The notes beneath the pieces were generated by a model that worked only from the letters and a program-made list of their open reading frames with translations, did no database searches and had not been told where the DNA came from. Positions 5,876 to 26,408 of a stretch of 26,408 bases of DNA are shown piece after piece (position 1 is the stretch's first letter; the number at the start of each line of letters is the position of its first letter). A program made the translations under genes and the position numbers. This DNA is from a virus. The DNA is taken from the IMG/VR virus record IMGVR_UViG_3300025687_004890, positions 1 through 26,408 of that record; one strand, given 5' to 3'.

Positions 5876-5892
5876 TCAGAAAAGATTTTTCC

Positions 5893-5919: not shown

Positions 5920-5920
5920 A

Positions 5921-5949
5921 TTGACACAAATATATAATGTTGTTATAAT
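5921..5949 (+). promoter_or_regulatory. Consensus sigma70-type promoter
   Basis: TTGACA (5921-5926), a 17-nt spacer and TATAAT (5944-5949) are all exact consensus. The predicted start is about 7 nt downstream, giving a short leader with AGGAG at 5963-5967 before ATG 5974. It drives the DsbA-like and DNA polymerase genes and needs only the host holoenzyme, consistent with early expression. Confidence 0.85.
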
Positions 5950-5973
5950 TTATACTTCACACAGGAGAAAATT

Positions 5974-12184: not shown

Positions 12185-12683
12185 TAATTGGAATAACCAA
12201 TTTGGAACCATTCCAGTAACATGGAATAAATTAGATTACACAGAACGCACAACATGGCGGAACCACGGAAACAAAAACAAAGGGTTCACTACATATGATG
12301 ATAATCGTAAAATTTATGATAAAAATATAGGTGTGTTGGTTCCTAACGAATTACTACCGGTGTTTGATGTCCGAGACTACTTTGATTTAGATAATCTGGT
12401 TTTTGACCTAAGTAAATATACCCCGGGCATGATTTTACCATGGCATCACGACGACTATCCTACGTATGCAAAAAATATGGGGGTGCAGGATTTAGATAGC
12501 ATTGTAAGAATTATTGTATTCTTGCATGATCCTGCTCCTGGCCAACAGTTATGGATTAAAGATCGATACTGCACCGGAGCAGCTGGAAGCTGGTTTGCGT
12601 GGACTGGCAAAACCAAACACATGGCTGCAAATTTAAGCGAAGTGGATAGATACGTTATTCAACTAACAGGTATTAACAAATAA
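12168..12683 (+). CDS. 2OG-Fe(II) oxygenase-like protein
   Basis: The 171-residue compact double-stranded beta-helix candidate has H93-H-D95 as the HxD metal pair within PGMILPWHHDDYPTY, H151 as the distal His and R161 ten residues later as the 2-oxoglutarate anchor. GSWFAWTGKTKHMAANLSE is the typical strand around the distal His. The family hydroxylates proteins, nucleic acids or small molecules. The gene overlaps the end of dpdA by 17 nt and the amidinotransferase by TAATG, so its product is made together with theirs. A base-modifying role is inferred from that; peptide hydroxylation or an aspartyl/asparaginyl hydroxylase-like role is the alternative. Confidence 0.75.
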   Translation: MKYSFNNWNNQFGTIPVTWNKLDYTERTTWRNHGNKNKGFTTYDDNRKIYDKNIGVLVPNELLPVFDVRDYFDLDNLVFDLSKYTPGMILPWHHDDYPTYAKNMGVQDLDSIVRIIVFLHDPAPGQQLWIKDRYCTGAAGSWFAWTGKTKHMAANLSEVDRYVIQLTGINK

Positions 12684-13768
12684 TGTATTCTGTTTATAAT
12701 CATTGGGATAGGTTAGATACCTGTATCGTAGGAAAAACTTATCCACCAGAATTCTATTCATGGATTAAAGACAGCAATACTCGCACCCGGTTTGAGCAAT
12801 TAGCAGAAGAAACCGAAGAAGATTATCAGAAATTAATTAACCTATTAGAAAAATTTAACGTTAACGTCCGGCGTCCGGAGTTTCCTGAAGACCTTAATGA
12901 ACTTTGGCTTGAGGATAAGTGGGTGCAACCGCCTACTGCGCCTCGTGACTATTTCATAATGATTCATGATAAATTTTGGATTCCAAATATTCCAAATCTA
13001 CATCATGCACAAGGGCTGTTTGAAAGAAAGCACAGTGAGCTTACAGGTAACGAACGTAATCTTGCGTGGGAAAAGTTTCAAATTGCAGATCAATTACACT
13101 TAGATAAAAAACTAAGTTTTTATAATCACATTTATGACGAAATTCGCGCAAGCGGAACAGAAATTGTATACACCGACCAGGACTATATCAACGGTTGTTT
13201 TGTAAGTCGGTTAAGCGATCGTTTGTATTTTGCTACACAAACAGCGCACGACTCAGAAGAAAAGATATTAGAAACAGTTGACAAACTATTTCCAAACACT
13301 TATAATAAAGTTGTTCCTGCAGAAGGGCACGGAGATGCGGTATATTGTCCTGTCACAGAAGGATTGATTATTAGTATCAATGATATGCCAACTTATGCAG
13401 AATCATTCCCAGACTGGGAGGTAGTGTATTTGCCAGACTCAAACTTTGCGTATAACGATAAGTTTAAAGTAGCAATGACTAAAAACAAAGGTCGTTGGTT
13501 TGTACCAGGGTTTGAAAAAGATCCTAACATGATGCACATGGTAGATCATTACTTTGACGAATGGGTAGGACAAGCAAGTGAAACACAGTTCCAGGTTAAT
13601 ATTTTAATTATTGATCCAAAGAACATTGTTGTAAGCTCACATAATGATCAAGTTGAAAAAGCGTGTGCAAAGTATGGTATAACCGTTCACGTAGTACCTT
13701 TTAGACACAAATACTTCTGGGACGCAGGAACACATTGTATTACAAATGATATTAACAGGGTGACGTAA
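12683..13768 (+). CDS. Amidinotransferase-like protein (guanidino-modifying fold)
   Basis: This 361-residue member of the GME superfamily (glycine/inosamine amidinotransferase, arginine deiminase) has EGHGDAVYCP with catalytic His216 and Asp218, and FWDAGTHCIT with the nucleophilic Cys at 352. LDTCIVGKTYPPEFY at the N terminus matches the first beta-alpha unit (VxVGxxyp). These enzymes transfer an amidino group from arginine through a Cys-amidino intermediate, or hydrolyse guanidino groups. The acceptor cannot be read from sequence. Coupled to the 2OG oxygenase and close to dpdA, it could act on an aminated deazaguanine; a small-molecule acceptor or host-metabolism role is equally possible. 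Confidence 0.82.
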   Translation: MYSVYNHWDRLDTCIVGKTYPPEFYSWIKDSNTRTRFEQLAEETEEDYQKLINLLEKFNVNVRRPEFPEDLNELWLEDKWVQPPTAPRDYFIMIHDKFWIPNIPNLHHAQGLFERKHSELTGNERNLAWEKFQIADQLHLDKKLSFYNHIYDEIRASGTEIVYTDQDYINGCFVSRLSDRLYFATQTAHDSEEKILETVDKLFPNTYNKVVPAEGHGDAVYCPVTEGLIISINDMPTYAESFPDWEVVYLPDSNFAYNDKFKVAMTKNKGRWFVPGFEKDPNMMHMVDHYFDEWVGQASETQFQVNILIIDPKNIVVSSHNDQVEKACAKYGITVHVVPFRHKYFWDAGTHCITNDINRVT

Positions 13769-13770
13769 AT

Positions 13771-13959
13771 ATGCCTACAGTAGCAGAAATACAAAAACAA
13801 TTAACAATAGTTAGTAAAAAACTAGCAGAAGCAAAAGATGTACAACAACAAGACGAGTTGCGTAAGAAAAAAACTGCACTTGCACTTGATTTAAAAAGAG
13901 CTCAACAACGAGCATGGAATAACCGCAACGATAGTATAGACTGGGGCGATGGCTACTAA
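13771..13959 (+). CDS. Small coiled-coil hypothetical
   Basis: The 62-residue protein starts two nucleotides after the amidinotransferase stop. Residues 5-50 form one long, Lys/Gln/Ala-rich helix with heptad spacing (IQKQLTIVSKKLAEAK, then QDELRKKKTALALDLKRAQQ), probably a coiled coil. The C terminus is DSIDWGDGY. The next gene begins inside its last four codons. I do not recognise the family; an oligomerisation or adaptor role is plausible. Confidence 0.65.
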   Translation: MPTVAEIQKQLTIVSKKLAEAKDVQQQDELRKKKTALALDLKRAQQRAWNNRNDSIDWGDGY

Positions 13960-14455
13960 ATCAGCACACGACAATTTTAAAGGGCAGTACTTTACCGGTA
14001 CTGAAGTAGAACAAACAGCTATGTATGGTAAGACCACACTTTTCGTAGTAGGTGAACCAGAATTATATAGCATTCAACAACAACTAGATGCAAATCCAGA
14101 TATTCAGCACATTTACTTTGGTGCTAATATGAGTTTTAACGCAAAGAAACTTCATCAATGGGAAGCAGTTATTATGGACTTCCTGCGTGCAGACTATTGG
14201 TGCACACTAGACTTTGACGTTCAAAATGTAGAAGATATTCTGGAAACCGAACTGGTAGAATGGCATCGTTTTATTCCAATGATTAGTGTTAAACTTCCAT
14301 ACATTGACCAACTTGGTTATAATGCGGTACTCAAACTAGACGATACAGACTTTAAAGCATCTAATCCTGGTGTTTGGTGTCATCGAGTACGTGATTTGAT
14401 GACCACCAACAGTTTTACAGATTGGTCTAAGTATGAAGAAGACGAGCCGGTATAA
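13949..14455 (+). CDS. Conserved phage hypothetical, alpha/beta
   Basis: The 168-residue protein overlaps its upstream neighbour by 11 nt and the downstream gene by TAATG. The pattern is alternating beta/alpha (TTLFVVGEPELYSIQQQL, DIQHIYFGANMSFN, HQWEAVIMDFL, YWCTLDFDVQNVEDIL), suggesting a small Rossmann-like fold. The C terminus FTDWSKYEEDEPV resembles a conserved acidic tail that I recall from marine phage hypotheticals. There are no catalytic motifs I can name. Confidence 0.72.
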   Translation: MATKSAHDNFKGQYFTGTEVEQTAMYGKTTLFVVGEPELYSIQQQLDANPDIQHIYFGANMSFNAKKLHQWEAVIMDFLRADYWCTLDFDVQNVEDILETELVEWHRFIPMISVKLPYIDQLGYNAVLKLDDTDFKASNPGVWCHRVRDLMTTNSFTDWSKYEEDEPV

Positions 14456-14910
14456 TGGAAGAACAAATTAAACAAGCACAACTAGAAACTGCTAATCGCA
14501 TTATGCAGAAAGCACCTCGTATGATTTGGGTAACGCTACAAAAAGAAGGTGTACATCGTTATCCTGGTGCTGATACTGATCCTAAACTCGCAACAGGCGA
14601 CTGGGACGATGTAAGTTTCCTAGGTGTTCCTCACAGACATATCTTTCACTTTAAGGTATGGATTGAAGTATTCCACAATGATCGTGATATTGAGTTTATC
14701 CAATTTAAACGTTGGATCACTAGACTATACGATCAAAGTGTGTTACAGTTAGACTATAAATCATGTGAAATGATAGCAGATGATTTATATGCTGAAATCG
14801 CTACTAAGTATCCAGGTCGTGCCGTGTGGATCTCAGTTAGCGAAGATGACGAAAACGGCGCATTTATTCAATACAACACAACACAACCAGTAACATTACT
14901 GAAAATTTAA
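14455..14910 (+). CDS. Conserved phage protein, possible QueD-like T-fold
   Basis: The 151-residue protein can be laid along the QueD/PTPS pattern: EGVHRYP (H34) in place of FxAAHRLP, PHRHIFHFKVWIEV (H60-x-H62) in place of LHGHSFxVxLEI, DIEFIQFKRWI in place of WIIDFxELK, SCEMIADDLYAEI in place of TSExLAxWIW, and VWISVSEDDENGA in place of the VxVxET strand. The catalytic Cys that precedes HGH in QueD is absent. So the fold and a metal site may be shared while the chemistry differs. The alignment is mine, by eye. Homologues of unknown function occur in marine T4-like phages. It overlaps its upstream neighbour by TAATG. Confidence 0.7.
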   Translation: MEEQIKQAQLETANRIMQKAPRMIWVTLQKEGVHRYPGADTDPKLATGDWDDVSFLGVPHRHIFHFKVWIEVFHNDRDIEFIQFKRWITRLYDQSVLQLDYKSCEMIADDLYAEIATKYPGRAVWISVSEDDENGAFIQYNTTQPVTLLKI

Positions 14911-14922
14911 AAGAGAAAAACA

Positions 14923-15132
14923 ATGTCTAAGAAGACTTATAATAATCCTCGTGTATCCCAGGTATTCAATGACTTAGAGTCTTATCTGGATTTCTGTCGC
15001 TCATATGGATATCGTTTTAACGAAAGTGATTTATACAATATGCAATCGTATCCATTCCAGCAATTCAATAAATTCCGTCAAGGAAAGAACTTCAAGGACC
15101 AATGGGCAGTTGACGCTCGCCGTATTCGATAA
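14923..15132 (+). CDS. Small conserved phage hypothetical
   Basis: The 69-residue basic protein is preceded by AAGAGA at a workable distance. The sequence RVSQVFNDLESYLDFCRSYGYRFNESDLYN, then FNKFRQGKNFKDQWAVDARRI, resembles a small protein often seen in marine T4-like phages, of unknown function. It is predicted helical with a basic C-terminal half. It overlaps the next gene by TAATG. Confidence 0.72.
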   Translation: MSKKTYNNPRVSQVFNDLESYLDFCRSYGYRFNESDLYNMQSYPFQQFNKFRQGKNFKDQWAVDARRIR

Positions 15133-15749
15133 TGGAACAACAAGCGTTTGATGCATTCAGGAATTTTTTTAAATCACCAATTTACCGTTCGCCAAACAGT
15201 AAATTAGTGTATATTCCTGTATTAAAAAATGCCAGTTCATATTATGACTGGGTATTTTCACAGGCTAATTGGACAGAGATACAGTACAAAGATATACACC
15301 CAGACGAAGATTATCTTTTTGGGTTTATATCTGAACCAATGACAAGATATGTTAAAGGTGTTGTACAAGACATGATATCACACGGATCGGAAAATATTCT
15401 ATGCAATATGTTAGGTGTGAAATTTTGGGAATTTGCTCCTATTTTAGGAATTCACAGCGTACCAATGACTGTCATATACCCCGAGTTATATAATAAAATT
15501 AACTGGATTCCTCTCGACCACCGTAAAATAAACGCAAAAGAAGTTTTACAAGACATTCTGAATACACACGGAGAACAATCAGTTCAACTTCCGCAGGAAA
15601 GAATGAATTCAGCGGCACCGTGGCAAAAACGATTGTACGATGATATTGGACCAAAGTTTTATGGAGCCGGCCATACTTGGTTTAAAATACTATATCCGGA
15701 TGAATATCCATTATATCAAAAGTCTATAGATCAATATCTTAATAATTAA
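15132..15749 (+). CDS. Sulfotransferase-like protein (tentative)
   Basis: In this 205-residue protein, KLVYIPVLKNASSYYDWVF near residue 25 resembles the sulfotransferase 5'-PAPS loop (hxYIPxxKxAGSS). FGFISEPMTRYVKGVVQDM at about 73-92 resembles the FxRDPxxRxxS 3'-phosphate segment. The C terminus YDDIGPKFYGAGHTWFKILYPDEYPLYQ recalls the YxxDxxLY end of such enzymes. If active it would transfer sulfate from PAPS to a sugar or small acceptor. It stands just upstream of a glycosyltransferase, epimerase and aminotransferase, which fits glycan decoration. The match is partial. Confidence 0.5.
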   Translation: MEQQAFDAFRNFFKSPIYRSPNSKLVYIPVLKNASSYYDWVFSQANWTEIQYKDIHPDEDYLFGFISEPMTRYVKGVVQDMISHGSENILCNMLGVKFWEFAPILGIHSVPMTVIYPELYNKINWIPLDHRKINAKEVLQDILNTHGEQSVQLPQERMNSAAPWQKRLYDDIGPKFYGAGHTWFKILYPDEYPLYQKSIDQYLNN

Positions 15750-15750
15750 C

Positions 15751-16128
15751 ATGTTTTACATTATACATAATACCGGCAATACCGCCGGCGGGACACAGCT
15801 AGCAGAGCAATTAAGAAATATTTACGGCGAGACACATGTAGCAGATGTTTGTGCTGATGATACTTCTGTCCCTGATAGCAGTGATGCTGGACATTATTGG
15901 ACGGCGGCACAAGTATTAATGAAATTATGTGATATGTATGCCGACGATGTCATTAAAACAGGCGATACAATTATCTTTACATGGTTCCATGATCCTAACG
16001 CTAGACTTGTAAATGACCTAAATATCAGCTATAATGTACAACCTAACATGTACTGGTATACATTCGAAGGCACTGGTGTTTGGGAGTTAAGCTCTCACAA
16101 ATTTATGAAACTTGAGGAATTAGCGTAA
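15751..16128 (+). CDS. Hypothetical 125-residue protein beside the glycosyltransferase
   Basis: It begins one nucleotide after the previous stop and overlaps the glycosyltransferase by TAATG. MFYIIHNTGNTAGGTQLAEQLRN looks like a beta strand, a Gly-rich turn and a helix, as at the start of a nucleotide-sugar or Rossmann-type domain, but the protein is too short for a full GT-B half. GDTIIFTWFHDPNARL is another strand-turn. I do not recognise the family. A partner or accessory to the glycosyltransferase is suggested only by coupling. Confidence 0.68.
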   Translation: MFYIIHNTGNTAGGTQLAEQLRNIYGETHVADVCADDTSVPDSSDAGHYWTAAQVLMKLCDMYADDVIKTGDTIIFTWFHDPNARLVNDLNISYNVQPNMYWYTFEGTGVWELSSHKFMKLEELA

Positions 16129-17312
16129 TGCGTAAATTATTTTATATGGGTTTGGAAAGTTATCAAGCTCGTTACACATATCAATTAACAGACTGGAACG
16201 AACGTGTATTTAAACGTCGCGGTATTGATTATGTAATTGTTCCAGGCGAAACTATTGACGATACTAAAGCAATTTCCGTAGGGCAGGTACTCGACGCACA
16301 CGGACGTTCATACTTTGGTATGAGCCAAATGATGAATCTTGTACAGATGATGCGTAACGGCGAGTGCAGCGGCGAGGATGCAGTCTTCTTTGAAGATATG
16401 TTCCAACCCGGTATTGAAAGTTTGCCGTATATCATGTGCCAGATTCCAGAGAAGGATCGTCCGCAGATTTATGTGCGTTGTTTAGCACAAGCAATCGATC
16501 CAGATGACTTTGTACACGTTTGGGGCATGAGTAAATGGATGAGTCTTTACGAACAAATGGTAAATGAAATTCCAAATGTTCATGTTCTTTCATCAAATGA
16601 GGAAATGGTAGCACATCAGCGTATTGCTAACTGGTCAGCACCCATTTACAATATTTCAGGACTTGCGTTCGGTAAGGAAGAAGTACAAAGTCGTGTAGAA
16701 AGTATTAAACCATTTGCAGAACGTGCAAATCGTGTAGTATTTGCAGCACGTTGGGATCAGGAAAAGCAGCCAGATTTCTTTATGGATATCGTAGAAGAAC
16801 TCTCAGGACTGGGTACAGAATTTGCTGTGCTACAAGGTGGTCCATTACGTTCTAACAATCCTAAGTATATTGAACGTGCAAAGGATCTTGAACGTCAAGG
16901 TAAACTGTGCATCTACGAAAATCTTTCAAAGAATGATTATTATGCTATCCTAAACGACAGCCGTGTACTGTTTAACTGTGCATTGCAGGATTGGGTATCT
17001 AACACAGTGAGCGAAGCAGACGCACTAGGGTGTAATGTAGTATATCCTGCTTACCGCAGTTTCCCAGAAACATTTGCCAATGATTATACTCGCTTGTATA
17101 CTCCGTGGAGCAAAGCCGATGCATTGGCTAAGATTGCAGCAGGCCTAGAAAAGCCAAGCTCAAACATGGGCAAGATTTCAGATTGGACAGATGGCACCGT
17201 GGACCGTATTGTAGATATTATCGAAGGTAAGGGCGAGCAATGGAACCGAGCAGGCATCCGCTATCGCGATCATGTTGCAGAATCAAAATATGAAGTTAAA
17301 GAACACTGGTAA
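16128..17312 (+). CDS. GT-B glycosyltransferase
   Basis: In this 394-residue protein the C-terminal half matches glycosyltransferase group 1/GT4. RVVFAARWDQEKQPDFFMDIVEEL (about 202-225) is the inter-domain start of the donor domain. LSKNDYYAILNDSRVLFNCALQDWVSNTVSEADALGCNVVYPAY holds the acidic residue and Gly-rich strand that bind the sugar nucleotide. The N-terminal half is the less conserved acceptor domain. No membrane segment is visible. The next gene is a GalE-like epimerase that could supply its donor. The acceptor (modified DNA, virion protein or host surface glycan) is unknown. Confidence 0.82.
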   Translation: MRKLFYMGLESYQARYTYQLTDWNERVFKRRGIDYVIVPGETIDDTKAISVGQVLDAHGRSYFGMSQMMNLVQMMRNGECSGEDAVFFEDMFQPGIESLPYIMCQIPEKDRPQIYVRCLAQAIDPDDFVHVWGMSKWMSLYEQMVNEIPNVHVLSSNEEMVAHQRIANWSAPIYNISGLAFGKEEVQSRVESIKPFAERANRVVFAARWDQEKQPDFFMDIVEELSGLGTEFAVLQGGPLRSNNPKYIERAKDLERQGKLCIYENLSKNDYYAILNDSRVLFNCALQDWVSNTVSEADALGCNVVYPAYRSFPETFANDYTRLYTPWSKADALAKIAAGLEKPSSNMGKISDWTDGTVDRIVDIIEGKGEQWNRAGIRYRDHVAESKYEVKEHW

Positions 17313-17313
17313 T

Positions 17314-18303
17314 ATGGATCTTGAAGGTTTAACTATTTGCGTTACTGGTGGCGCTGGTTTTGTTGGAAGCCACACCGCAAAAACACTTAAAGCAGCAGGT
17401 GCTCGTGTAATTGTTCTTGACCGTAGACGCTTGCCACTACCAGACACCATTTATGATCAGTTCTTGCACGATGATTTTGCTGAAGAACGTGTACTAGATT
17501 ATTTACAAGGTATGAACGTTGACGGGTTTGTTCACTGTGCAGGAACAAGCCTAGTAGGTCCTTCCATTAAAAACCCAAGCGAATACTATAATAACAATGT
17601 TTTAAAGAACATTCAGTTCTTAGATCACTTAAAGGAATGGAAACGTAAACCGTTCATTGTATTTTCAAGTTCAGCAGCAACATATGGTAATCCAGTGAAC
17701 ATTCCTATTAAAGAAACAGACCCGCAGTTACCGATTAACCCTTACGGCGAAACTAAACTTATTATGGAAAAATTATTGCGTGACTATGATCGTGCGTATA
17801 ATATTCGCAGTTATAGTTTACGATATTTTAATGCCTGCGGAGCGGATGTATGGGGTACAGAACTTGGTCCAGAAGACGGTGATACTCATATTATTCCTCG
17901 ATTGTTTACCAATAATCCTTTCCACCTTTTTGGCGATGATTACAATACGCCCGATGGCACTTGCGTCAGGGATTATATTCACGTTAGCGACCTTGCATTA
18001 GCACATTGTAAAGCTGTAGAAGCATTGTCCGGAAGTGAAATTAATTTTCCGCACGGGCGACCAAGTGCATGTTATAACTTAGGAACAAATACAGGTATTA
18101 GTAATCGAGAGCTTATCGAAGCATACAAAAAATATGTAGGAGAACTTACAGTTATCACAGGACCACGAAGAGAAGGTGATCCAGACGAATTAGTAGCCGA
18201 CGGCAAACAATTTCAACTTGATCACCACTGGAAACCTGCATATAGCGATCTAGAGACCATTATTACTAGTACAAAAGCATGGTACGATAAGCATGGCGTT
18301 TGA
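17314..18303 (+). CDS. NAD-dependent sugar epimerase (GalE-like)
   Basis: This 329-residue extended SDR has GGAGFVGSH at 12-20 as the NAD-binding loop, SSSAATYG at 118-125 with the catalytic Ser/Thr, and YGETK with Y144 and K148. YFNACGAD...HIIPRLF is typical of UDP-glucose 4-epimerase relatives. I chose ATG 17314 rather than the in-frame ATG at 17272, because the latter adds 14 non-family residues and runs 41 nt into the glycosyltransferase gene. It probably converts an NDP-hexose for the adjacent glycosyltransferase. The exact sugar is not determined, since related dehydratases share these motifs. Confidence 0.88.
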   Translation: MDLEGLTICVTGGAGFVGSHTAKTLKAAGARVIVLDRRRLPLPDTIYDQFLHDDFAEERVLDYLQGMNVDGFVHCAGTSLVGPSIKNPSEYYNNNVLKNIQFLDHLKEWKRKPFIVFSSSAATYGNPVNIPIKETDPQLPINPYGETKLIMEKLLRDYDRAYNIRSYSLRYFNACGADVWGTELGPEDGDTHIIPRLFTNNPFHLFGDDYNTPDGTCVRDYIHVSDLALAHCKAVEALSGSEINFPHGRPSACYNLGTNTGISNRELIEAYKKYVGELTVITGPRREGDPDELVADGKQFQLDHHWKPAYSDLETIITSTKAWYDKHGV

Positions 18304-18889
18304 TGCAATTTTAAAATTTGAACAAGCTCTGGCATCATACACAGGTGCTCCGTATGCTATCATGACTGATTGTTGCACCCATGCCATTGAATTATGTTTA
18401 CGTTACGAACAACCTAAGATCGTAGTGCTTACGCCTTTTACTTATTTAAGCGTACCAATGATAATGCACAAACTAGACATTCCATATGAGTATATTAACG
18501 ACAATGCGTACTGGATCGGCGAATACAGGCTAATTGGATCGCGTATTTGGGATAGTGCCAGAAGACTTGAAAAAGACATGTACGAACCCAACACAATGAA
18601 ATGTTTATCTTTTGGGTATTCTAAACCTTTAGAAATTGGGCACGGTGGTGCTATATTGTTAGACGACGAAAAAGCATACAACAAACTAATTCGTATGCGT
18701 TATGATGGTCGCGACCTAAATATTAGTCCATGGTCAGAACAAGTAACCTTTGAAGTTGGATATCATTATAGGCCAACAATTGAGGATGCTAACCGTGGGT
18801 TAGCATTACTAGAAGAATATAAAAAGAAAGATGATACTGATCCTGTATATGTGCAATATCCTGATTGTCGTCTAATTAATATTGAATAA
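18293..18889 (+). CDS. Compact DegT/StrS-like PLP aminotransferase
   Basis: The protein has 198 residues, about half the usual 370. YTGAPYAIMTDCCTHAIELCL matches the N-terminal G/T-rich substrate loop, TPFTYLSVPMIM the next strand-helix, IWDSARRLEKDMY with D87 the pyridine-N contact, and LSFGYSKPLEIGHGGAILLDD contains K111 at the PLP Schiff-base position. The C-terminal small domain is largely missing. The core looks intact, so a minimal enzyme or a PLP-binding relic are both possible. It overlaps the epimerase by 11 nt, suggesting amino-sugar formation. Short versions occur in other marine phages as I recall, so this is probably not a recent truncation. Confidence 0.72.
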   Translation: MAFDAILKFEQALASYTGAPYAIMTDCCTHAIELCLRYEQPKIVVLTPFTYLSVPMIMHKLDIPYEYINDNAYWIGEYRLIGSRIWDSARRLEKDMYEPNTMKCLSFGYSKPLEIGHGGAILLDDEKAYNKLIRMRYDGRDLNISPWSEQVTFEVGYHYRPTIEDANRGLALLEEYKKKDDTDPVYVQYPDCRLINIE

Positions 18890-18891
18890 CA

Positions 18892-18920
18892 TTGACAATT
18901 ATCTAAATAAAGTGTATAAT
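18892..18920 (+). promoter_or_regulatory. Consensus sigma70-type promoter with embedded CTAAATA
   Basis: TTGACA (18892-18897), 17 nt and TATAAT (18915-18920) are exact consensus. CTAAATA lies at 18903-18909 in the spacer, as in the promoter at 9884. The leader carries CGGAG at 18954-18958 before ATG 18965. It drives folE and the queD-like gene. Confidence 0.85.
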
Positions 18921-18932
18921 ACATCATGTATT

Positions 18933-18948
18933 AAGACATCCTCGTCTT
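18933..18948 (+). other. Leader stem-loop upstream of folE
   Basis: AAGAC and GTCTT pair around ATCCTC, just after the expected transcription start. The 5-bp stem is short; it may stabilise the 5' end. It does not match the preQ1-I or tetrahydrofolate riboswitch consensus as I know them. Confidence 0.3.
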
Positions 18949-18964
18949 TAACTCGGAGAAATAA

Positions 18965-19648
18965 ATGAAAAAGTACGAAGAAATTATTGAACGCTGCAAA
19001 TCTGCAGACAAACGTTACTGGGCAGGTGATAATATTTCACGTCTAATCCAATCAGGTGAAAAAGAACAACTAATCGATGAAGCAACAGAAGCATTTGAAA
19101 CTGTACTTGATACATTGATTATTGATAGACACAACGATCCTAACTCAAAAGGCACGGCACGCCGTCTTGCTAAAATGTACTTTAATGAGATTATGGCAGG
19201 ACGTTATGAACACGCTCCGGACGCAACAGCATTTCCAAATGACTCAGAAGATCGTTATGAAGGTATGCTTGTTGTTCGTTCAGAACTTAAATCAATGTGT
19301 TCACACCATCACCAGCCAGTAACTGGCACAGCATATATTGGCATTATCGCTGCTGAAAAGTTAATTGGATTGAGCAAGTATACACGTATTGCACAGTGGT
19401 GCGCACGTCGTGGTACATTGCAAGAAGAACTTGCTAATGACATTGCTCGCGAGATTAAGAAAGCAACTGGCGCTAAGGACTTAGGTGTTTACATTCAAGC
19501 CACGCATGGTTGTTGCGAGAATCGCGGCATTATGGCACACAGTAGTCTTACACAGACAACTGTCCTCGAAGGCTCATTTAAGACTGATCCAGGTACTAAG
19601 AAAGAGTTCTTTGATAACATTAAACTACAGCAAGAATTTGCTTGTTAA
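18965..19648 (+). CDS. folE: GTP cyclohydrolase I
   Basis: The 227-residue enzyme (E. coli FolE has 222) converts GTP to 7,8-dihydroneopterin triphosphate, the first step to tetrahydrofolate and to 7-deazaguanines. Zinc ligands are visible: C112 and H115 in SMCSHHHQPVTG, and C183 in ATHGCC. GLSKYTRI at 135-142 and QEELANDIA at 153-161 match the conserved core, and SKGTARRLAKMY at 61-72 corresponds to the DTPxRVAKMY motif. The gene has its own consensus promoter and is followed 9 nt later by a QueD homologue, pointing to the preQ0 route and DNA modification with the DpdA-like protein upstream. Confidence 0.95.
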   Translation: MKKYEEIIERCKSADKRYWAGDNISRLIQSGEKEQLIDEATEAFETVLDTLIIDRHNDPNSKGTARRLAKMYFNEIMAGRYEHAPDATAFPNDSEDRYEGMLVVRSELKSMCSHHHQPVTGTAYIGIIAAEKLIGLSKYTRIAQWCARRGTLQEELANDIAREIKKATGAKDLGVYIQATHGCCENRGIMAHSSLTQTTVLEGSFKTDPGTKKEFFDNIKLQQEFAC

Positions 19649-19657
19649 GGAGAAAAC

Positions 19658-20245
19658 ATGGGCGTTAAGGTAAAATCAACAAAAGTATATAGATATCTAC
19701 CTTGCGGTCACGCACAGTTCTTTGATCGTGAACCAGACGGTAGTCCAGGTGAATGTGCAAGTGTACACGGGTATGATCGTTCAGTAGAACTAACATTTGC
19801 CGGTGATATTGATGATATGGGCTGGATTGTTCCGTTTGGTGAACTAAAAGATGTTAAAACTTTTATCGAATACTATTTTGATCACGTAACTGTGCTGCCA
19901 GCAAATGATCCTAGGCTGGATCAGATTACAGCGGAAATGAAACAACCCGGTGGCATTTTGGGTACAGTTCGTGTACTGCCAAGCGGTGTAAGCATGGAAA
20001 TGAGTAGTTTGTTTATTTGGGAATGGGTCAATCAATATATCTTTAGTGTAACTGAAGGTCGTTGTTATGTAGAACGAGTGCGTGTTTACGAGCATGATCG
20101 CAATGATGCAATGATTGAAGTTGATCGTGAAACTGCTATCAAAGATGCAACACGCAAACTAGCAGCAGGCGAGGATATTCTTCCACTAATCAGTGAATGG
20201 TACTGGGAAGCACCTAAAGCTGCCGTAGCACGCATTGAATCATAA
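19658..20245 (+). CDS. queD: QueD/PTPS-like 6-carboxytetrahydropterin synthase homologue
   Basis: The 195-residue protein has a clean AAGGAG at 5 nt. H18 in LPCGHAQFF, C33 and H37 in ECASVHGY, WIVPFGELK at 56-64, FDH at 74-76 and VRVYEHD with E146 follow the QueD order (first His, catalytic Cys, HGH, DFxELK, DH, E). The third metal His of HGH is Tyr39 here. I recall HGY in a family of marine phage and cyanobacterial homologues, so it is a subfamily feature rather than a lesion. It would take the FolE product to 6-carboxytetrahydropterin for preQ0 synthesis. Activity with the altered metal site is unproven. Confidence 0.8.
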   Translation: MGVKVKSTKVYRYLPCGHAQFFDREPDGSPGECASVHGYDRSVELTFAGDIDDMGWIVPFGELKDVKTFIEYYFDHVTVLPANDPRLDQITAEMKQPGGILGTVRVLPSGVSMEMSSLFIWEWVNQYIFSVTEGRCYVERVRVYEHDRNDAMIEVDRETAIKDATRKLAAGEDILPLISEWYWEAPKAAVARIES

Positions 20246-20628
20246 TGTCCGATAATGATAAGCCATTGGGTTTCTGTGAGAATGCTAGAAGTCTAACCTA
20301 TCCAAGCAATGTAGGTGCTCCTGCTTTTACAGTACCCGATGTGCTTACTCATAAAACGGAAAAGACCAACAAGGCAGTTCATCAATTACAAACCAAGTTT
20401 GATGAACTAAAAGAAGAATACTTTCGACTAGTTGAACTAGCAGAAGACACTAGTTTGGTATATAACGCAGAGTACAATTTTGTTCCTGTAGTAGGCAAAA
20501 CATATCACTTATACGACAGTGAAAGAAAAATATTTCTAAGTATTATTGATCCAAAAGATTGGAGCAGCATGAAGCATCTAGGTAGTTTTCGATATACGTC
20601 TGATGCAACATGGGAGAGAATTGAATGA
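20245..20628 (+). CDS. DUF2452-like protein
   Basis: In this 127-residue protein, LTYPSNVGAPAFTVPD at the N terminus, a central helix (KTEKTNKAVHQLQTKFDELKEEYFRLVEL) and VYNAEYNFVPVVGKTYHLYDSERKIFLSIIDPKDW match the pattern I know as DUF2452, found in bacteria and marine phages with no known biochemical role. It overlaps the QueD-like gene by TAATG and the following small membrane gene by ATGA, so it is co-translated with both. Confidence 0.72.
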   Translation: MSDNDKPLGFCENARSLTYPSNVGAPAFTVPDVLTHKTEKTNKAVHQLQTKFDELKEEYFRLVELAEDTSLVYNAEYNFVPVVGKTYHLYDSERKIFLSIIDPKDWSSMKHLGSFRYTSDATWERIE

Positions 20629-20777
20629 AATGGGGGACTTGGTGTAAAACCTTAGGATCCAAAATTTCTGAGGATAAAAAAGAAGCAGATCATGCATGTT
20701 TGTTCAGAACTGTGTATACCGGTATAATGTTTGTTACCTGCTTCTTTATTATTGCTGGAGTCATACACCAATGGTGA
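20625..20777 (+). CDS. Small single-span membrane protein
   Basis: The 50-residue ORF has ATGA coupling to the DUF2452 gene. The N-terminal half is polar (KWGTWCKTLGSKISEDKKEADH). TGIMFVTCFFIIAGVI near the C terminus is one clear membrane helix, followed by HQW. The last codons overlap the next lipoprotein start. With the helix at the C-terminal end there is no periplasmic domain, so it is not a classical inner-membrane spanin; a holin-like or regulatory membrane peptide is possible. Confidence 0.6.
   Translation: MKWGTWCKTLGSKISEDKKEADHACLFRTVYTGIMFVTCFFIIAGVIHQW
20700..20728 (+). promoter_or_regulatory. Possible weak internal promoter
   Basis: TTGTTC, 17 nt and TATAAT (20723-20728) lie inside the small membrane gene. 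The -10 box overlaps the perfect 12-bp palindrome TATACCGGTATA (20715-20726), a possible operator. This could give separate control of the lipoprotein at 20771. Confidence 0.35.
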
Positions 20778-20911
20778 GAGTGCTAATTTTTAGTGCGATC
20801 GTGCTAGCAGTTAGTGCGTGCAGCATTACTTATTATGGGACTTATGTAGAACCAGGCGCAGAACCCTCTGGTCCCAAACTAATAATCAAACCAGCAGACG
20901 TAAGTCGTTGA
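20771..20911 (+). CDS. Small lipoprotein
   Basis: In the 46-residue protein, MVRVLIFSAIVLAVSAC is a short signal peptide ending in a lipobox (V-S-A-C, Cys17), so the mature product is about 30 residues, lipid-anchored and Pro-rich (YVEPGAEPSGPKLI). Size and composition resemble Rz1-type outer-membrane spanins and small phage exclusion lipoproteins such as T5 Llp, but no clear inner-membrane spanin partner is present here. I chose ATG 20771, which overlaps the previous gene; the alternative reading from 20696 adds 25 residues in front of the signal peptide. A terminator follows immediately. Confidence 0.65.
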   Translation: MVRVLIFSAIVLAVSACSITYYGTYVEPGAEPSGPKLIIKPADVSR

Positions 20912-20922
20912 TTTTACACCCT

Positions 20923-20951
20923 AAAAATCCGCTTGACACAGCGGATTTTTT
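20923..20951 (+). terminator. Rho-independent terminator enclosing a promoter -35 box
   Basis: AAAAATCCGC (20923-20932) pairs with GCGGATTTTT (20941-20950) and a T tract follows. The 8-nt loop is TTGACACA, so the -35 box of the next promoter is the loop itself. It separates the lipoprotein operon from the subtilase gene. Confidence 0.88.
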
Positions 20952-20960
20952 ATGTATAAT
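20933..20960 (+). promoter_or_regulatory. Sigma70-type promoter of the subtilase gene
   Basis: TTGACA (20933-20938), 16 nt and TATAAT (20955-20960). The -35 box sits in the loop of the terminator and its downstream arm forms the spacer. Leader of about 45 nt, AGGAG at 21000-21004, ATG at 21012. Confidence 0.82.
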
Positions 20961-21011
20961 ATGCATTGTAAGTAAAACTTTTTAACCCATCCACTACATA
21001 GGAGAACTAGG

Positions 21012-24000
21012 ATGGCTTTTACAAAGAGTAAGATTGCAATTGCTGTTGCTACTACTGCTAGCCTAACTGGCTGCGGAGGCGGTGGCGGTGGACCCGGCGG
21101 AGCCGGTATTAAACCTTCGGTATCTACAGAATATAGTTTTTCAACTAAAAGTGTGAAAGATATTTTTGGTTGGTCAGAAATTCAAACAGTAGACGAAAAC
21201 GAAAAACAAGACCTTGAAAACTTAGTAAAAGTTTTTAAATTCGTGCAAGAACATCGATATGATTCATTGAAAGAATCCGGTGCAATAATCTACATTAATA
21301 ATCATCCACGCACACTCGAAGATGCGTGGAATGTTCTTAAAGGATTAACAAAACAATATTACGAAGGACAGGAAGAGTTTTGGGATAAAGTAGTCGAAAC
21401 CGGACAATTCAATGATGCAGACGATGCATATAATAGAATCATTGCGGCCGGTAATGTAACATCTAATATGTCTGATGAAGAACAGTTTGATTATTACTTA
21501 AACATCGGTTCGGGTATTGTAGCTGTTGCACCTGATCCAAACGTTAGTTGGCATAATGGCATTTATACCGATTGGACACTTAGCAACGCAGGTGTTCCTA
21601 CCAGCGATACCAATGACAATCCGGCGTGTACTGCTGACGTATACACTCGTGATGTACATTGGGAAAAGGTGGTCAACGGACAACGCACTGGCGTCCGTGG
21701 AGAACATATTCGTACCGAAACCGAAGAACGCAATGTTTCGTGTCCTGCAATAGTCAGCACGCAAGACGTTACTAGTGCAGAAAACTCGTACACCGAAGGT
21801 GACGTAACTACAGAAACCACATACGAGGACGATACTCGTACTAGTCTAGATGCTAATGGCAGCACTGTTACTGAGGTATGGCGTACTGTAACTGCGGTCA
21901 GCACAATTCCACGCACAACTACCACAGTAACCACTGTTACTCGTGTTGTTACATATTCAGATGGTACTACTTCAAGCGAAGTAATTGACACCGAAACAGT
22001 TACCGAAACTGCCGATCAAGTTATCACCGAAACATCTGAATACATGCTGTCTCGCACAGTAACACCAAATGTTACCGAAACCGGTGACACCGTAAGCACC
22101 ATTGATACTGTAACATATGGCGAAACCACAGTATCTACTACCTACGTAGACAATACCACAACCAAACTCGACTCTAGTGGAAATACTGTAACTGAAGTTT
22201 GGCGTACCTATACAGATATCTCAACTACACCAGTAACAACCACTACAGTCGCAACCACTACTCGCACCACGTACTATACTGATGGATCTAGTACCAGCGA
22301 GGTTATTGATACAACCACCACAGAGGACACCGTAAACAATGTTTCTACTACTACCCGCGAACCCGAACGCATTAGCCGAACTGTTACTGCTAATCTCGTT
22401 AGCAGCGAAGTAATCTCCGCAGATGTAACTGCTACTAGCACAGGCACAACTGTTAGCGAAACTGTATCTGAGGATGATACTCGTACTAGCCTAGATGCAA
22501 ACGGTAGCACGGTTACTGAGGTGTATCGTGTTTATACAACAACGAACACAACTCCAGTAACTACAACTGTTACTACTACGCAAACACGTGTTGATACTTA
22601 TACCGACGGCACTGTTCGTGAAACTGTTGTTGATGTAAGCGAATCGTCTACGGTTACTAACACAGTTACTACGGCCACTTCTGAAGAACTAGTATCTCGC
22701 ACTGTTACACCAAATGTAGCAAACACAAGCGACTTAGACGTAACTACTGTAGCAACCACAGTTAGCGAACCAGTATTAGCTAAAACTATTATCAACACCG
22801 ACACACGTGATGACGGTGTTTGGACGTTCTACTATTACTTTTGGAACACTACAACTACAGTAACTACTACGGTGGTTACAACTCGCACAACCAACTGGAC
22901 CGATGGTACTACAACCACCGAAGTAATCAATACTACTGAAACCGTCAACGATTCTGTTGCAGAAACTATTACCACACAGATTGTATCTCCCGAAGCTACA
23001 CCTGTTGCACCAACTGCACCAGACACTGGATCGGGTACTGTAATTGTTGAACAACCCGGCGCACCTGCCCTGGACTATGACCCGGAAACATATAACTATG
23101 TTTCCTACTATGGTAGCGACCACGTTGGTACTCCTACAGAAGTTGACAGTCACGATCCAGCAGATTTTGCAACCGCCGAAGCAGATAATGGTGCTGTGCT
23201 TGATGTAAATGCAAACTATGCATACGCACGTGGCTGGACTGGTCTAGGCTCAACAGTAATGATCATGGACACTGGCATCGACACTGATCATCCAGAGCTA
23301 GCAGACAAAATCAAGTACGAATGGGAACCGGGTTATGACACCGGTCTCGAAGACACTAACGGGCACGGCACTCACGTAGCAGGCATCGTTGCTGCTGCCA
23401 AAGATGGCACAGGAACACACGGCGTTGCATATGATGCAGAACTTGCCATTGCACGTATCGGTGAACGTGTTCCATCAATGAGCTTTGCACGTCAAGCACT
23501 CAATTGGGCAAAGGACAAGCCAGACATTGTTGCTGCTAATTTAAGTGCAAACGTTATATATTCTACAAGCTATAAAGAAAGTATTACCGCACACGGCGAT
23601 GGTATTTTTACCAGCAATCACGAAATTTACGGTGGCGAAAACTATTACAATCTAGAAAATCCTCAAAATTGGGCAGATGCACTTAACGGTTCAGAAATTG
23701 TACTAACTGTTAGTGCAGGCAACACAAACTTGGGTTATGTGCAGAATCCAGCAACATTTGCTAGTGCAGTAGACGACAACGGAAACTTGCTACTCGATGG
23801 GCGTATGCTGGTTGTTGGCAATTGGAATACAAGTGCTAACACAATCGAAGGTGCAAAGTCAGGGCATGTTTGTAAGGATTTTACAGAAGCAACCTCAACT
23901 TGTAATGATCCATATTTAACCAAGGATTTTTATATTCTTGCCCCAGGCACACGCATTAATAGCACGTATCTTGATGGTTCGTACAAGACCATGTCGGGGA

Positions 24001-24995
24001 CTAGTATGGCGGCTCCAGTAGTTGCTGGTGCAGTAGCTATTGTACATCAACTGTGGCCTTACATGGAAGGCAAGAACATTGCACAACTACTGTTGCAAAC
24101 TGCTAACAAGAATATCACAGGCTACAACGAAAACACACACGGACAGGGTTTGCTAGATTTGGATCAAGCAACACGACCGGTAGGCGATCTTGGTATTAGC
24201 CTAACTGGACGCAATGGCGCTACTGTGGAAATATCAGGCGGTATTAGTGTAAATGGCATCGAAGCTGGCACACTTAGCAACGTTGCAGCAGTAGATGACT
24301 ATGATCGTGACTTTACTGTGGACTTGTCCAGTGCTAATGTAGAGCGCAAGATTAGCGTAGAATATGCAGATCGTCAAAAGAACAACGGCGGTTGGGCAAG
24401 CACAATGGCTAACTTATCTGCACGCAAGATTGACAATGTACGCTTTGCTGCTAGCGATAATGTAGAAGAATATAGTATTGGCTATGAACATCGGTTCTTT
24501 GATACCAACTTAACTGCTGGTGTAAGTTATACCAAAGCAGATACTAATCCCTGGATTGATATGTCTGGCATGTGGGGTGAAGTTGATGGCTCACAAACCA
24601 CAGAACTTAACCTAACATACGACTACAAGGACATGTGGGCACAGATTGGTGCAATGAATACCAGCACTCGCTACAAGACTGGACTAGTAACTGATGTAGA
24701 TGACATTCGATCAGTGTACGCAACTGTGGGGTACGACACAGACTCAATTGCTGTGTTTGGCGGTATCAAGCCATACGCAGTAAATGGTTCAGTAACAATG
24801 CGTCTGCCAACTAGTGTTGATGCTGATGGTGTTATGCATTATGATACTGTAAGCAGCCGTGTGCGTTCAGAACTCGACGGTTATGTTGGATTTAAGCACA
24901 ATTATCAAAAGAAAAACCATAGCACTACATTTGTAGGTATCGTAGACGGTGGCGGGGAAGGACACTTGAACTTTAACTATCGCTACAAGTTCTAA
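21012..24995 (+). CDS. Subtilase lipoprotein with Thr-rich repeats and C-terminal beta-barrel
   Basis: The 1327-residue protein has a signal peptide ending in the lipobox LTGC (Cys21), then a Gly-rich linker. Residues 40-255 form an N-terminal domain; about 260-670 hold four Thr-rich repeats of roughly 107 residues. The S8 peptidase domain spans about 725-1075, with catalytic D753 (IMDTGID), H785 (HGTHVAG) and S998 (GTSMAAP) and oxyanion N904 (SAGN); all are present. The last 240 residues alternate beta strands and end NFNYRYKF, a C-terminal aromatic typical of outer-membrane barrels. This layout recalls autotransporter lipoprotein proteases such as NalP and SphB1. It has its own promoter. 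Possible roles are surface-protein shaving, superinfection exclusion or lysis. Such a gene is unexpected in a T4-like phage. Confidence 0.93.
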   Translation: MAFTKSKIAIAVATTASLTGCGGGGGGPGGAGIKPSVSTEYSFSTKSVKDIFGWSEIQTVDENEKQDLENLVKVFKFVQEHRYDSLKESGAIIYINNHPRTLEDAWNVLKGLTKQYYEGQEEFWDKVVETGQFNDADDAYNRIIAAGNVTSNMSDEEQFDYYLNIGSGIVAVAPDPNVSWHNGIYTDWTLSNAGVPTSDTNDNPACTADVYTRDVHWEKVVNGQRTGVRGEHIRTETEERNVSCPAIVSTQDVTSAENSYTEGDVTTETTYEDDTRTSLDANGSTVTEVWRTVTAVSTIPRTTTTVTTVTRVVTYSDGTTSSEVIDTETVTETADQVITETSEYMLSRTVTPNVTETGDTVSTIDTVTYGETTVSTTYVDNTTTKLDSSGNTVTEVWRTYTDISTTPVTTTTVATTTRTTYYTDGSSTSEVIDTTTTEDTVNNVSTTTREPERISRTVTANLVSSEVISADVTATSTGTTVSETVSEDDTRTSLDANGSTVTEVYRVYTTTNTTPVTTTVTTTQTRVDTYTDGTVRETVVDVSESSTVTNTVTTATSEELVSRTVTPNVANTSDLDVTTVATTVSEPVLAKTIINTDTRDDGVWTFYYYFWNTTTTVTTTVVTTRTTNWTDGTTTTEVINTTETVNDSVAETITTQIVSPEATPVAPTAPDTGSGTVIVEQPGAPALDYDPETYNYVSYYGSDHVGTPTEVDSHDPADFATAEADNGAVLDVNANYAYARGWTGLGSTVMIMDTGIDTDHPELADKIKYEWEPGYDTGLEDTNGHGTHVAGIVAAAKDGTGTHGVAYDAELAIARIGERVPSMSFARQALNWAKDKPDIVAANLSANVIYSTSYKESITAHGDGIFTSNHEIYGGENYYNLENPQNWADALNGSEIVLTVSAGNTNLGYVQNPATFASAVDDNGNLLLDGRMLVVGNWNTSANTIEGAKSGHVCKDFTEATSTCNDPYLTKDFYILAPGTRINSTYLDGSYKTMSGTSMAAPVVAGAVAIVHQLWPYMEGKNIAQLLLQTANKNITGYNENTHGQGLLDLDQATRPVGDLGISLTGRNGATVEISGGISVNGIEAGTLSNVAAVDDYDRDFTVDLSSANVERKISVEYADRQKNNGGWASTMANLSARKIDNVRFAASDNVEEYSIGYEHRFFDTNLTAGVSYTKADTNPWIDMSGMWGEVDGSQTTELNLTYDYKDMWAQIGAMNTSTRYKTGLVTDVDDIRSVYATVGYDTDSIAVFGGIKPYAVNGSVTMRLPTSVDADGVMHYDTVSSRVRSELDGYVGFKHNYQKKNHSTTFVGIVDGGGEGHLNFNYRYKF
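21786..23010 (+). repeat. Four Thr-rich coding repeats of about 107 residues
   Basis: Each unit carries a (Y/S)EDDTRTSLDANGSTVTEV-type segment, a TTTTVTTxTR run, a (Y/W)(S/T)DGT turn near residues 316, 422, 531 and 630, EV(I/V)(D/N), and usually SRTVT(P/A)N. Copies 1 and 3 are nearly identical in protein yet differ at many codon third positions. Copy 4 has diverged and is about 99 residues. Confidence 0.85.
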
Positions 24996-25010
24996 AGGTT
25001 TTAACGTTCG

Positions 25011-25018
25011 CATAAATA
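25011..25018 (+). promoter_or_regulatory. Late promoter-like CATAAATA element
   Basis: CATAAATA, 7 nt, then ATG 25026 without a Shine-Dalgarno sequence. The stretch TAAATACTACATTATG matches TAAATACTATATCATG at 2239-2254 at all but two positions, and the following bases (CGAGC versus AGAGC) also match. Confidence 0.68.
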
Positions 25019-25025
25019 CTACATT

Positions 25026-25307
25026 ATGCGAGCAACAGATTTAATTCGTCAACTACTAGATTTAATTGACAACATTGAGTCCACTAAAGGACCTGATGTT
25101 TCGGTTAGTGTTACCAATATCACACAGGAAGTCAACGACGAACCAGAATACGCCAACGAACCAAACGAGCAGTATGCTCCGGTTAGTGCGGTTACAACTG
25201 ACATGGGCGGCGGTCCTAACAAGCCCAAACATCCAGCAGATATCAGAGGCGATTCACAGAGCCTGTATCCTGCTGCACAGTGGAACTCTAGTAAGGATTA
25301 TCGCTGA
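25026..25307 (+). CDS. Small virion-type hypothetical with MRATDLI start
   Basis: The 93-residue protein begins MRATDLIRQLLDLIDNIE, an amphipathic helix sharing the MRA-x-DLI opening with the protein at 814. The usual L/I-x-E cut site is less obvious here; IDNIE at 14-18 has no L/I at the right spacing. The rest is Pro/Asn/Glu-rich and probably disordered, ending HPADIRGDSQSLYPAAQWN, which resembles conserved C-termini of marine phage hypotheticals. The late promoter-like element and structural neighbours suggest a virion protein. Confidence 0.75.
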   Translation: MRATDLIRQLLDLIDNIESTKGPDVSVSVTNITQEVNDEPEYANEPNEQYAPVSAVTTDMGGGPNKPKHPADIRGDSQSLYPAAQWNSSKDYR

Positions 25308-25735
25308 TGGCTACGGTAACCGTTCAAAGCCTATTAAACACGGCTGTTTATGATAGTTACACAGTAGATGTTACTGTAAGTGGCGATACAGTAGGCGACT
25401 TAAAAGACGCTGTTGAAACCGCAACTGGCGTTAGCATTGATTGGTTTGATCTAGTGCTAGACGAACAGTTACTAACAGTTGGTGATACACTATACACTGC
25501 TGGTGTTGTGGATGGAACAGTACTCCGCACACACAATAAAATTGCTCGTTTAGCAACACGCGAAGATAGACAAAAAGCAAAACTTGATCTAGCAGCACTG
25601 GATAGGACTGCCAGCAGTAATCCTCGTGATGTGTATGACATTACTGAATTACCAACACAGTATTCCGGGAATACTGTTGTAGACAATCCAAACGTAGGCG
25701 GATTAGTTGAAGGCAGACCCTGGGATACAACCTAA
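25307..25735 (+). CDS. Phage protein with ubiquitin-like (beta-grasp) N-terminal domain candidate
   Basis: The 142-residue protein starts with a TGATG overlap. Residues 1-75 read as two strands (VTVQSLLNTAVYDSYTVDVTVSG), a helix (TVGDLKDAVETATG), then SIDWFDLVLDEQLLTVGDTLYTAGVVDGTVLRT. This matches the order and spacing of ubiquitin: the SDTIxxVKxKIxxxxGI helix, the RLIFxGKQLxxxxTL hairpin, and the STLHL final strand. A charged helix (REDRQKAKLDLAALDR) and a Pro/Asn-rich tail follow. There is no C-terminal GG, so conjugation is unlikely; beta-grasp domains are also used as binding modules. It is probably a small structural protein. Confidence 0.7.
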   Translation: MATVTVQSLLNTAVYDSYTVDVTVSGDTVGDLKDAVETATGVSIDWFDLVLDEQLLTVGDTLYTAGVVDGTVLRTHNKIARLATREDRQKAKLDLAALDRTASSNPRDVYDITELPTQYSGNTVVDNPNVGGLVEGRPWDTT

Positions 25736-26408
25736 TGGCCAACCTAAATCCAAACTCAACTGATTACTTCCATAGCTACGAACCAAATACCAATGACCTC
25801 ACAATGGCCATGGACTATACAGAAGATGGCAAGCCTGCTATTCGTGTGCTGTCAAACATTCAAGGTGATATTGTTATTGAAGGTGAAGTAACTATTCCTG
25901 GCATAGTTACAGTAACTAACACCGACGACGATCCTTTATTCACGCATACACATATCTATGATGAAAACGAGGTTGAGTACACTGATTCAAATCCATTTAC
26001 TGTAGATGGCACTGTCACTGTGTTACAGGGCACAGATCCGTGGACTGTATCGGGCACGGTTACTGTTGATTCAATAACTGGTGCTGTTACTATTGCGCAA
26101 CCAGTGGAAGTTACACAGGGCACAGACCCTTGGACTGTTGATGGCACTGTTAATATTGGCACAATGCCAGAAGTCGAGATCAAAAACGACACTGGCAATC
26201 CTATAACAGTGATAGGAACAACCATAAACCCATTTGGTTTGCCTGTAGTCAGTGTCGATGATGATACGGTACAGCACACCGCAACCAACAGGCGTAAAGT
26301 AAGTAACTACGAAATCACCGAGTTTAATACATTTCAATACACAAAAGACCCACTGATCTGGGACGAGGAAGTTACAGGCACAGCATCATCAACACTCAAT
26401 ACTTATGA
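25735..26408 (+). CDS. Repeat-bearing virion protein, 3' partial
   Basis: The frame opens at ATG 25735 (TAATG overlap) and runs 224 codons to the right edge without a stop. An N-terminal STDYFHSYEPNTNDLTMAMDY segment precedes beta-rich repeats: NPFTVDGTVTV, QGTDPWTVSGTVTV and QGTDPWTVDGTVNI, the last two exactly 30 residues apart. Such PWTVxGTV repeats resemble beta-helical or fibre-type regions of phage tail, baseplate or head-decoration proteins. The three preceding genes are coupled to it under one late promoter-like element. The exact structural role cannot be fixed because the C terminus lies outside the window. Confidence 0.8.
   Translation, partial: MANLNPNSTDYFHSYEPNTNDLTMAMDYTEDGKPAIRVLSNIQGDIVIEGEVTIPGIVTVTNTDDDPLFTHTHIYDENEVEYTDSNPFTVDGTVTVLQGTDPWTVSGTVTVDSITGAVTIAQPVEVTQGTDPWTVDGTVNIGTMPEVEIKNDTGNPITVIGTTINPFGLPVVSVDDDTVQHTATNRRKVSNYEITEFNTFQYTKDPLIWDEEVTGTASSTLNTY
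26026..26157 (+). repeat. QGTDPWTV(S/D)GTV repeats, 90-nt period
   Basis: Copies at 26026-26067 and 26116-26157 encode QGTDPWTVSGTVTV and QGTDPWTVDGTVNI. A degenerate copy without the QGTD part lies at 25990-26022. The regular spacing suggests stacked beta turns. Confidence 0.75.

Follow-up and report, generated by a model that had tools for sequence, protein, structure and literature searches.

A predicted self-displayed S8 protease encoded behind an early-type promoter by uncultured T4-type phages

We analysed a 26,408-nucleotide stretch of viral DNA (positions 1 to 26,408 of IMG/VR record IMGVR_UViG_3300025687_004890; hereafter the window) and, within it, a plus-strand gene (21012–24995) for a 1,327-amino-acid (aa) S8 protease with a lipoprotein signal peptide and a predicted C-terminal outer-membrane barrel. 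Genes of this kind occur in many giant and aquatic phages of T4 type that have not been cultured. The best explanation, to which we give an even chance of being right, is that it encodes a phage-borne, early, self-displayed surface protease that trims the surface of the infected cell and perhaps excludes superinfecting phages; the substrate and function of the protease are parts of this explanation that we infer.

The anatomy of the protein is well supported. Its open reading frame (ORF) starts with ATG, contains no internal stop and is intact. The signal peptide (21012–21074, residues 1–21) has lysines at positions 5 and 7 and a hydrophobic stretch ahead of a lipobox, L18-T19-G20-C21, whose Cys21 is expected to be lipidated and is directly followed by six glycines. 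Four Thr-rich repeats of ~107 aa (21798–23040, residues ~263 to ~676–680; 33% Thr, with self-similarity maxima at offsets of 107 and 215) probably form a beta-rich stalk. The peptidase S8 domain (23247–24149, residues 746–1046) matches PF00082 with 127.3 bits (cut-off 21.8; E=9e-37), as do 60/60 relatives. The catalytic D753, H785 and S998 and the oxyanion Asn, N904, are the same letters in 60 relatives, one of them being truncated before the Asp; from this complete, invariant set we predict proteolytic activity. A preliminary description, made from the window's letters, had proposed a lipobox, the four repeats and an intact catalytic set, and each was found, the catalytic residues at exactly the positions given there. 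The C-terminal segment (24420–24992, residues ~1137–1327) is modelled as an outer-membrane beta-barrel of ~12 strands and ends in NYRYKF, an aromatic C-terminal beta-signal of the kind found in type Va autotransporters. The order of signal peptide, passenger and C-terminal barrel is also that of type Va autotransporters, the barrel being a prediction, and the combination of lipobox, S8 domain and barrel is that of NalP and SphB1, with lipidation predicted from the sequence.

We modelled the protein with AlphaFold2, using an input alignment of the 60 relatives. The mean predicted local distance difference test score (pLDDT) was 90.7 for residues 675–1327 and 91.2 for residues 1058–1327 alone (predicted template modelling score 0.85). 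In the model, two short helices precede the first barrel strand, and the strands (about 12 by DSSP) span residues ~1137 to 1325; the last ~190 residues are thus predicted with high confidence to form an outer-membrane barrel. A C-terminal barrel ending in Phe had been anticipated, and the model agrees, placing its first strand later than residue 1080, where the barrel had been expected to begin. Compared with solved structures, the S8 part resembles subtilisin (1iav, Z 35.9) and the autotransporter Ssp (8e7f, Z 35.6 over 300 residues). The best solved matches of the C-terminal model are outer-membrane barrels, among them KdgM (Z 12.9), EspP (11.4), NalP (1uyo, 10.9, with 191 residues aligned) and EstA (10.6). 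The NalP and EspP alignments extend into the stretch before the barrel and the KdgM alignment covers the barrel only; Z values alone do not separate autotransporter barrels from porin barrels. Foldseek gave weak E-values for the C-terminal part (best 3e-3), and a sequence-only search with a barrel profile matched no solved structure. The Pfam autotransporter beta-domain PF03797 matched 0/60 phage barrels at E 0.1, and in a control it matched 14/23 C-termini of bacterial S8 comparison proteins; Pfam's profile of the autotransporter domain does not recognise the phage barrel. The autotransporter layout proposed earlier stands in the order of its parts, with a barrel that this profile does not match, and of the two family searches suggested at that time, the one for S8 succeeded and the one for the autotransporter domain did not.

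A scan of IMG/VR with the family alignment yielded 139 pattern matches, and at least 122 places encode relatives; we retained 79 loci, from 73 differently numbered metagenomes, and counted N- and C-termini in 57 complete, non-redundant homologues. A lipobox is present in 29 of the 57, and 27 of the remaining 28 have an ordinary signal-peptide-like N-terminus, so that 56/57 begin with a secretory-type sequence; the exception, L054, lacks the N-terminal part and begins near the S8 domain. The last residue is Phe in 44, Trp in two, Tyr in one and Leu in two (49/57). Pairwise dN/dS values lie between 0.05 and 0.34 in the export, protease and barrel regions, whose borders are approximate (the S8 envelope sometimes took in the barrel) and for which some synonymous distances are close to saturation. 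When three family members were compared by tblastn with annotated phage records, only partial S8 matches at <60% identity (mostly ~25–44%) appeared and none covered 80% of the query, so that collection has essentially no members of the family; against plasmids there were general S8 matches only. BFVD holds one full-length structural relative, A0A6J5TBB6 (23% identity), from an uncultured Caudovirales phage and annotated 'Peptidase S8/S53 domain containing protein'. In one sub-clade (L069, L070, L075, L077, L090, L097 and L103), ~70 extra residues follow the barrel, which is thus not C-terminal, and the extension ends in HGLxYxLxxDxFVPI-type motifs.

These genes reside in genomes of the T4 superfamily. 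The window's DNA polymerase is of T4 type (phrog_262, E 3e-202) and nearest to those of the jumbo T4-superfamily phages Phosso and Atu_ph07 (47–50%), bearing out, in a broad sense, the description of the genome as T4-like. The window itself is a 26-kb fragment, but five long contigs of relatives (212,917, 340,172, 192,024, 302,518 and 133,896 bp) carry both the protease gene and the Gp23 major capsid protein, and four of the five also carry an S77 prohead protease. Two further markers proved unsuitable and were not used: phrog_2 matched 11/14 cellular controls, and PF20911 matched nowhere. A second contig, IMGVR_UViG_3300025655_003364 (L002), is 100% identical to window positions 11924–26408, or 14.5 kb, and continues for another 3.9 kb, which supplies the rest of a virion structural gene at window position 25735 (phrog_1645, E=1.5e-106). 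Because L002 carries identical flanking DNA, the gene is not chimeric. Of the outcomes named beforehand as counting against such a protein (no barrel, absence from other phages, a chimeric assembly), none occurred: the barrel was modelled, homologues are present on many contigs and the flanking DNA recurred.

The promoter of the gene points to early expression. A sigma-70 promoter (20933–20960, plus strand), TTGACA-N16-TATAAT with 12/12 consensus positions, lies 51 bp upstream of the ATG, confirming that the gene has its own consensus promoter. The window contains five perfect TTGACA-N16/17-TATAAT sites (5921, 9884, 13278, 18892 and 20933) against 0.02 expected; that at 13278 falls within an ORF, and 4/5 directly precede ORFs, namely those at 5974 (just upstream of DNA polymerase) and 9936, FolE and the protease. 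Across the collection, promoters with 11–12/12 consensus positions stand upstream of 31/57 protease homologues versus 51/688 other ORFs (odds ratio 14.9), with a p value of 1e-17 that overstates independence because the loci are related, and upstream of only 1/47 ORFs in structural regions. The structural regions instead contain ATAAATA, 21 times on the gene strand and never on the opposite strand (a bias seen in L179–L182 and L022; window sites at 2895, 3663 and 25012), and this motif precedes only 3/57 protease genes. The exact T4 late promoter TATAAATA was not found upstream of the structural ORFs read, where the shorter ATAAATA is used instead, and ATAAATA is a likely late promoter of these phages, judging from its sequence context. 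Its occurrence at 25012–25018 (plus strand), before a downstream block with the virion structural gene, we infer to mark where the separate transcription unit of the protease stops. Because the protease gene has a sigma-70 consensus promoter, unlike the ATAAATA of the virion genes, the host's sigma-70 polymerase most likely transcribes it early, whereas transcription of the virion genes is most likely late. Just upstream, a terminator-like hairpin (20923–20950, plus strand; AAAAATCCGC-TTGACACA-GCGGATTTTT, computed fold −15.7 kcal/mol) holds the −35 hexamer of this promoter in its loop, so that terminator and promoter overlap in sequence (20923–20960); in the relative L004 the counterpart stem, AAAAGCCGC...GCGGCTTTT, carries compensating changes that keep the pairing.

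Bacterial S8 autotransporters are the closest known kind, in particular the lipidated NalP of Neisseria meningitidis and SphB1 of Bordetella pertussis, which cleave surface proteins (PMC9977779). They have the lipobox, S8 domain and C-terminal barrel in common with the phage protein, which differs in being phage-encoded and in having a barrel without a PF03797 match. In 45 bacterial comparison proteins, which exclude NalP and SphB1 (neither is in our S8 tree), a median of 580 aa follow the S8 domain and 76 aa precede it, versus 284 and 221 aa in the phage proteins, whose S8 domain thus abuts the barrel. Ssp of Serratia has a like S8 fold but is a cytotoxic protease of bacteria whose passenger is longer, and is not among the lipidated autotransporters named in PMC9977779. 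Lipidated S8 autotransporter-like proteins are thus known in bacteria; what is new is a widespread, phage-borne lineage of apparently early class with a long N-terminal part, an S8 domain abutting the barrel and an unrecognised barrel. In the open-access literature we found no description of phage-encoded autotransporter proteases.

In a quick maximum-likelihood tree of S8 domains, the 61 phage rows and two sequences from contigs of bacterial metagenome-assembled genomes (MAGs), L105 and L106, form one clade with an SH-aLRT of 100 and a long stem. L105 is a 4-kb MAG contig of low coverage. On L106, from a gammaproteobacterial MAG, the protease (5161–7929) lies at 59% GC beside rml-like and other chromosomal-looking genes, a context suggesting that at least one bacterial chromosome carries a member of the clade. 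Because the patterns used to collect the tree's cellular rows came from the phage proteins, there may be a bacterial sister group closer than those sampled. S8 lipoproteins of Alphaproteobacteria (SAR11 L144 and L165, PS1 clade L134, Rhodobiaceae L137 and their relatives L110, L118, L120 and L133) are similar in layout: a lipobox followed by Gly runs in most, and an S8 domain and an aromatic-ending C-terminus in all. They are chromosomal, the SAR11 copies lying among ordinary chromosomal genes, and their S8 domains fall outside the phage clade. An hhalign comparison of the phage barrel with the C-termini of these lipoproteins, including those of SAR11 and the PS1 clade, from which the phage-clade member L106 was excluded, gave 99.3% (E 7.7e-21, 182 columns); against mixed bacterial barrels the match was weak (87.5%). 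On this profile evidence the barrels of the phage proteins and of the CGGGGG-type alphaproteobacterial S8 lipoproteins are homologous. In the SAR11 single-cell genomes, the chromosomal S8 lipoproteins lie at L144:5779–8154 (lipobox TACGGGGGGGG) and L165:125–2476 (lipobox NACGGGGGG).

In the explanation we favour, unmodified host RNA polymerase would transcribe the protease gene early, at the time of FolE and similar genes and separately from those of the virion. The protein would be exported by Sec and lipidated at Cys21, and the beta-barrel assembly machinery (BAM) would put its barrel into the outer membrane. The S8 domain, fused directly to the barrel, would be displayed on the cell surface in a layout comparable to that of NalP and SphB1; the Thr-rich repeats would link it to the lipid anchor. 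Its targets would be proteins of the infected cell's outer membrane or surface. What the phage most likely gains is destruction or remodelling of surface receptors, which would exclude competing phages and keep progeny from binding to spent cells or debris. Given the early promoter class, receptor trimming or superinfection exclusion fits better than progeny release. There are precedents for phage lipoproteins that act on the infected cell's outer membrane, as proposed here: the T5 lipoprotein Llp, which mediates superinfection exclusion and is made early in infection (PMC9586334), and the T1-type Cor. Llp and Cor are, however, small and non-enzymatic, without protease or barrel, and the parallel is functional only. 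Pelagimyophages similarly carry the curli-secretion genes csgF and csgG (PMC7029224), an example of bacterial-kind outer-membrane machinery in T4-like aquatic phages, although those proteins are unrelated and include no protease. We propose more tentatively, as a possibility, that in T4-type aquatic phages a dedicated, early, type V-like self-secreting protease strips receptors from the infected cell. It would exclude superinfecting phages and destroy receptors enzymatically, and its translocator barrel would differ from the curated autotransporter family.

Several points weigh against surface trimming. The porin-type barrel KdgM scores as well as the autotransporter barrels, no phage barrel matches PF03797, and the S8 domain is only presumed to be displayed at the surface, as the barrel could be an anchor only. 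The timing of expression is deduced from promoter motifs alone, and the receptor step is drawn by analogy from precedent. If the barrel did serve only as an anchor, the protease would act in the periplasm, for example on envelope proteins or in lysis. The presumptive nature of surface translocation, the equal fit of porin-type barrels and the small membrane protein and small lipoprotein encoded just upstream would accommodate such a role, but the combination of N-terminal passenger, barrel and lipid anchor is that of NalP and SphB1, whose targets are surface proteins, and an early-type promoter would be odd for a lysis gene; we consider this distinctly unlikely. Somewhat less doubtful, yet still unlikely, is a nutritional role in which the displayed protease, as the product of an auxiliary metabolic gene, feeds the infected cell by breaking down protein or peptides outside it. 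This would be compatible with early expression, and marine Alphaproteobacteria (SAR11, PS1) have homologous S8 lipoproteins on their chromosomes, for which a part in feeding is plausible. In the loci read, however, no linked peptide transporter or peptidase was seen, the neighbours are deazaguanine, folate-type, nucleotide and surface-sugar genes, and infection may be too brief to profit.

A protease borne on the virion and used at entry seems very improbable. Other phages do have subtilases: there is an S8 protein in Atu_ph07 (1,251 aa, encoded near a tail-fibre gene) and one in Phosso (1,291 aa). But the Atu_ph07 protein has neither signal peptide nor barrel, for which reason we rejected it as a cultured orthologue, whereas the window's family retains both, and the promoter class of the family is unlike that of virion genes. 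The S8 proteins of Atu_ph07, Phosso and Bacillus phages, phage-encoded too, show only weak similarity to the family. That the gene is bacterial DNA in a chimeric assembly we regard as having next to no likelihood: the architecture is bacterial and two relatives lie on contigs binned as Gammaproteobacteria, but L002 reproduces the flanking DNA exactly, protease genes occur with Gp23 on contigs of 134–340 kb, and the phage neighbourhood is conserved.

If surface trimming is correct, the phages of a large T4-type group produce an outer-membrane protein of their own that places an active protease on the host surface, in contrast to known superinfection-exclusion lipoproteins such as Llp, which block receptors non-enzymatically. 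Because the family is broad and usually annotated just as 'peptidase S8', it offers direct tests of phage action on the cell exterior, covering how lytic phages change the outside of infected cells, phage competition and the processing of surface proteins in infected aquatic bacteria. The family also reveals an uncharacterised type of barrel, which the phage proteins have in common with S8 lipoproteins encoded on the chromosomes of SAR11 and further marine bacteria.

In most loci FolE and a phosphoribosyltransferase-like gene lie near the protease gene, and QueE, MetK and RNase H-type genes lie downstream, with thymidine kinase in one clade; surface-sugar genes (glycosyltransferase, epimerase, DegT) are often close. 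FolE, QueD, DegT, glycosyltransferase and epimerase have Pfam or PHROG matches in the window, and the remaining marker names rest on reading of the sequences. None of these markers was found in L069–L070, L075, L077, L090, L096–L099 and L103, nor in L100–L102 and L104. In the window, a glycosyltransferase, an epimerase and a short DegT-type aminotransferase (16128–18889) suggest surface-sugar modification. The two small genes just upstream of the protease encode a 50-aa single-span membrane protein (20625–20777) and, overlapping it, a 46-aa lipoprotein with the lipobox VSAC (20771–20911); both have counterparts in L004 and are possible exclusion or lysis factors.

Elsewhere in the window, where we found no tRNA and no Rfam family, a 131-aa protein (2252–2647) has a twin-arginine-type signal, unusual in a phage (TAT_signal 22.0 bits, cut-off 22.7), and the product of 25307–25735, adjoining the virion structural gene, has a ubiquitin-like N-terminal part (PF00240, E 5e-4, under the cut-off). 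L002 contains, on the minus strand (16766–17827), a weak match to PF18760, the ADP-ribosyltransferase of polyvalent proteins (E 3e-4, under the cut-off). The protease-carrying T4-type contig L016 encodes an 808-aa secreted protein (17365–19788) whose tandem repeats (ADPLYDSGCxGY) are rich in Cys and which also has a tract of Glu/Thr-rich repeats.

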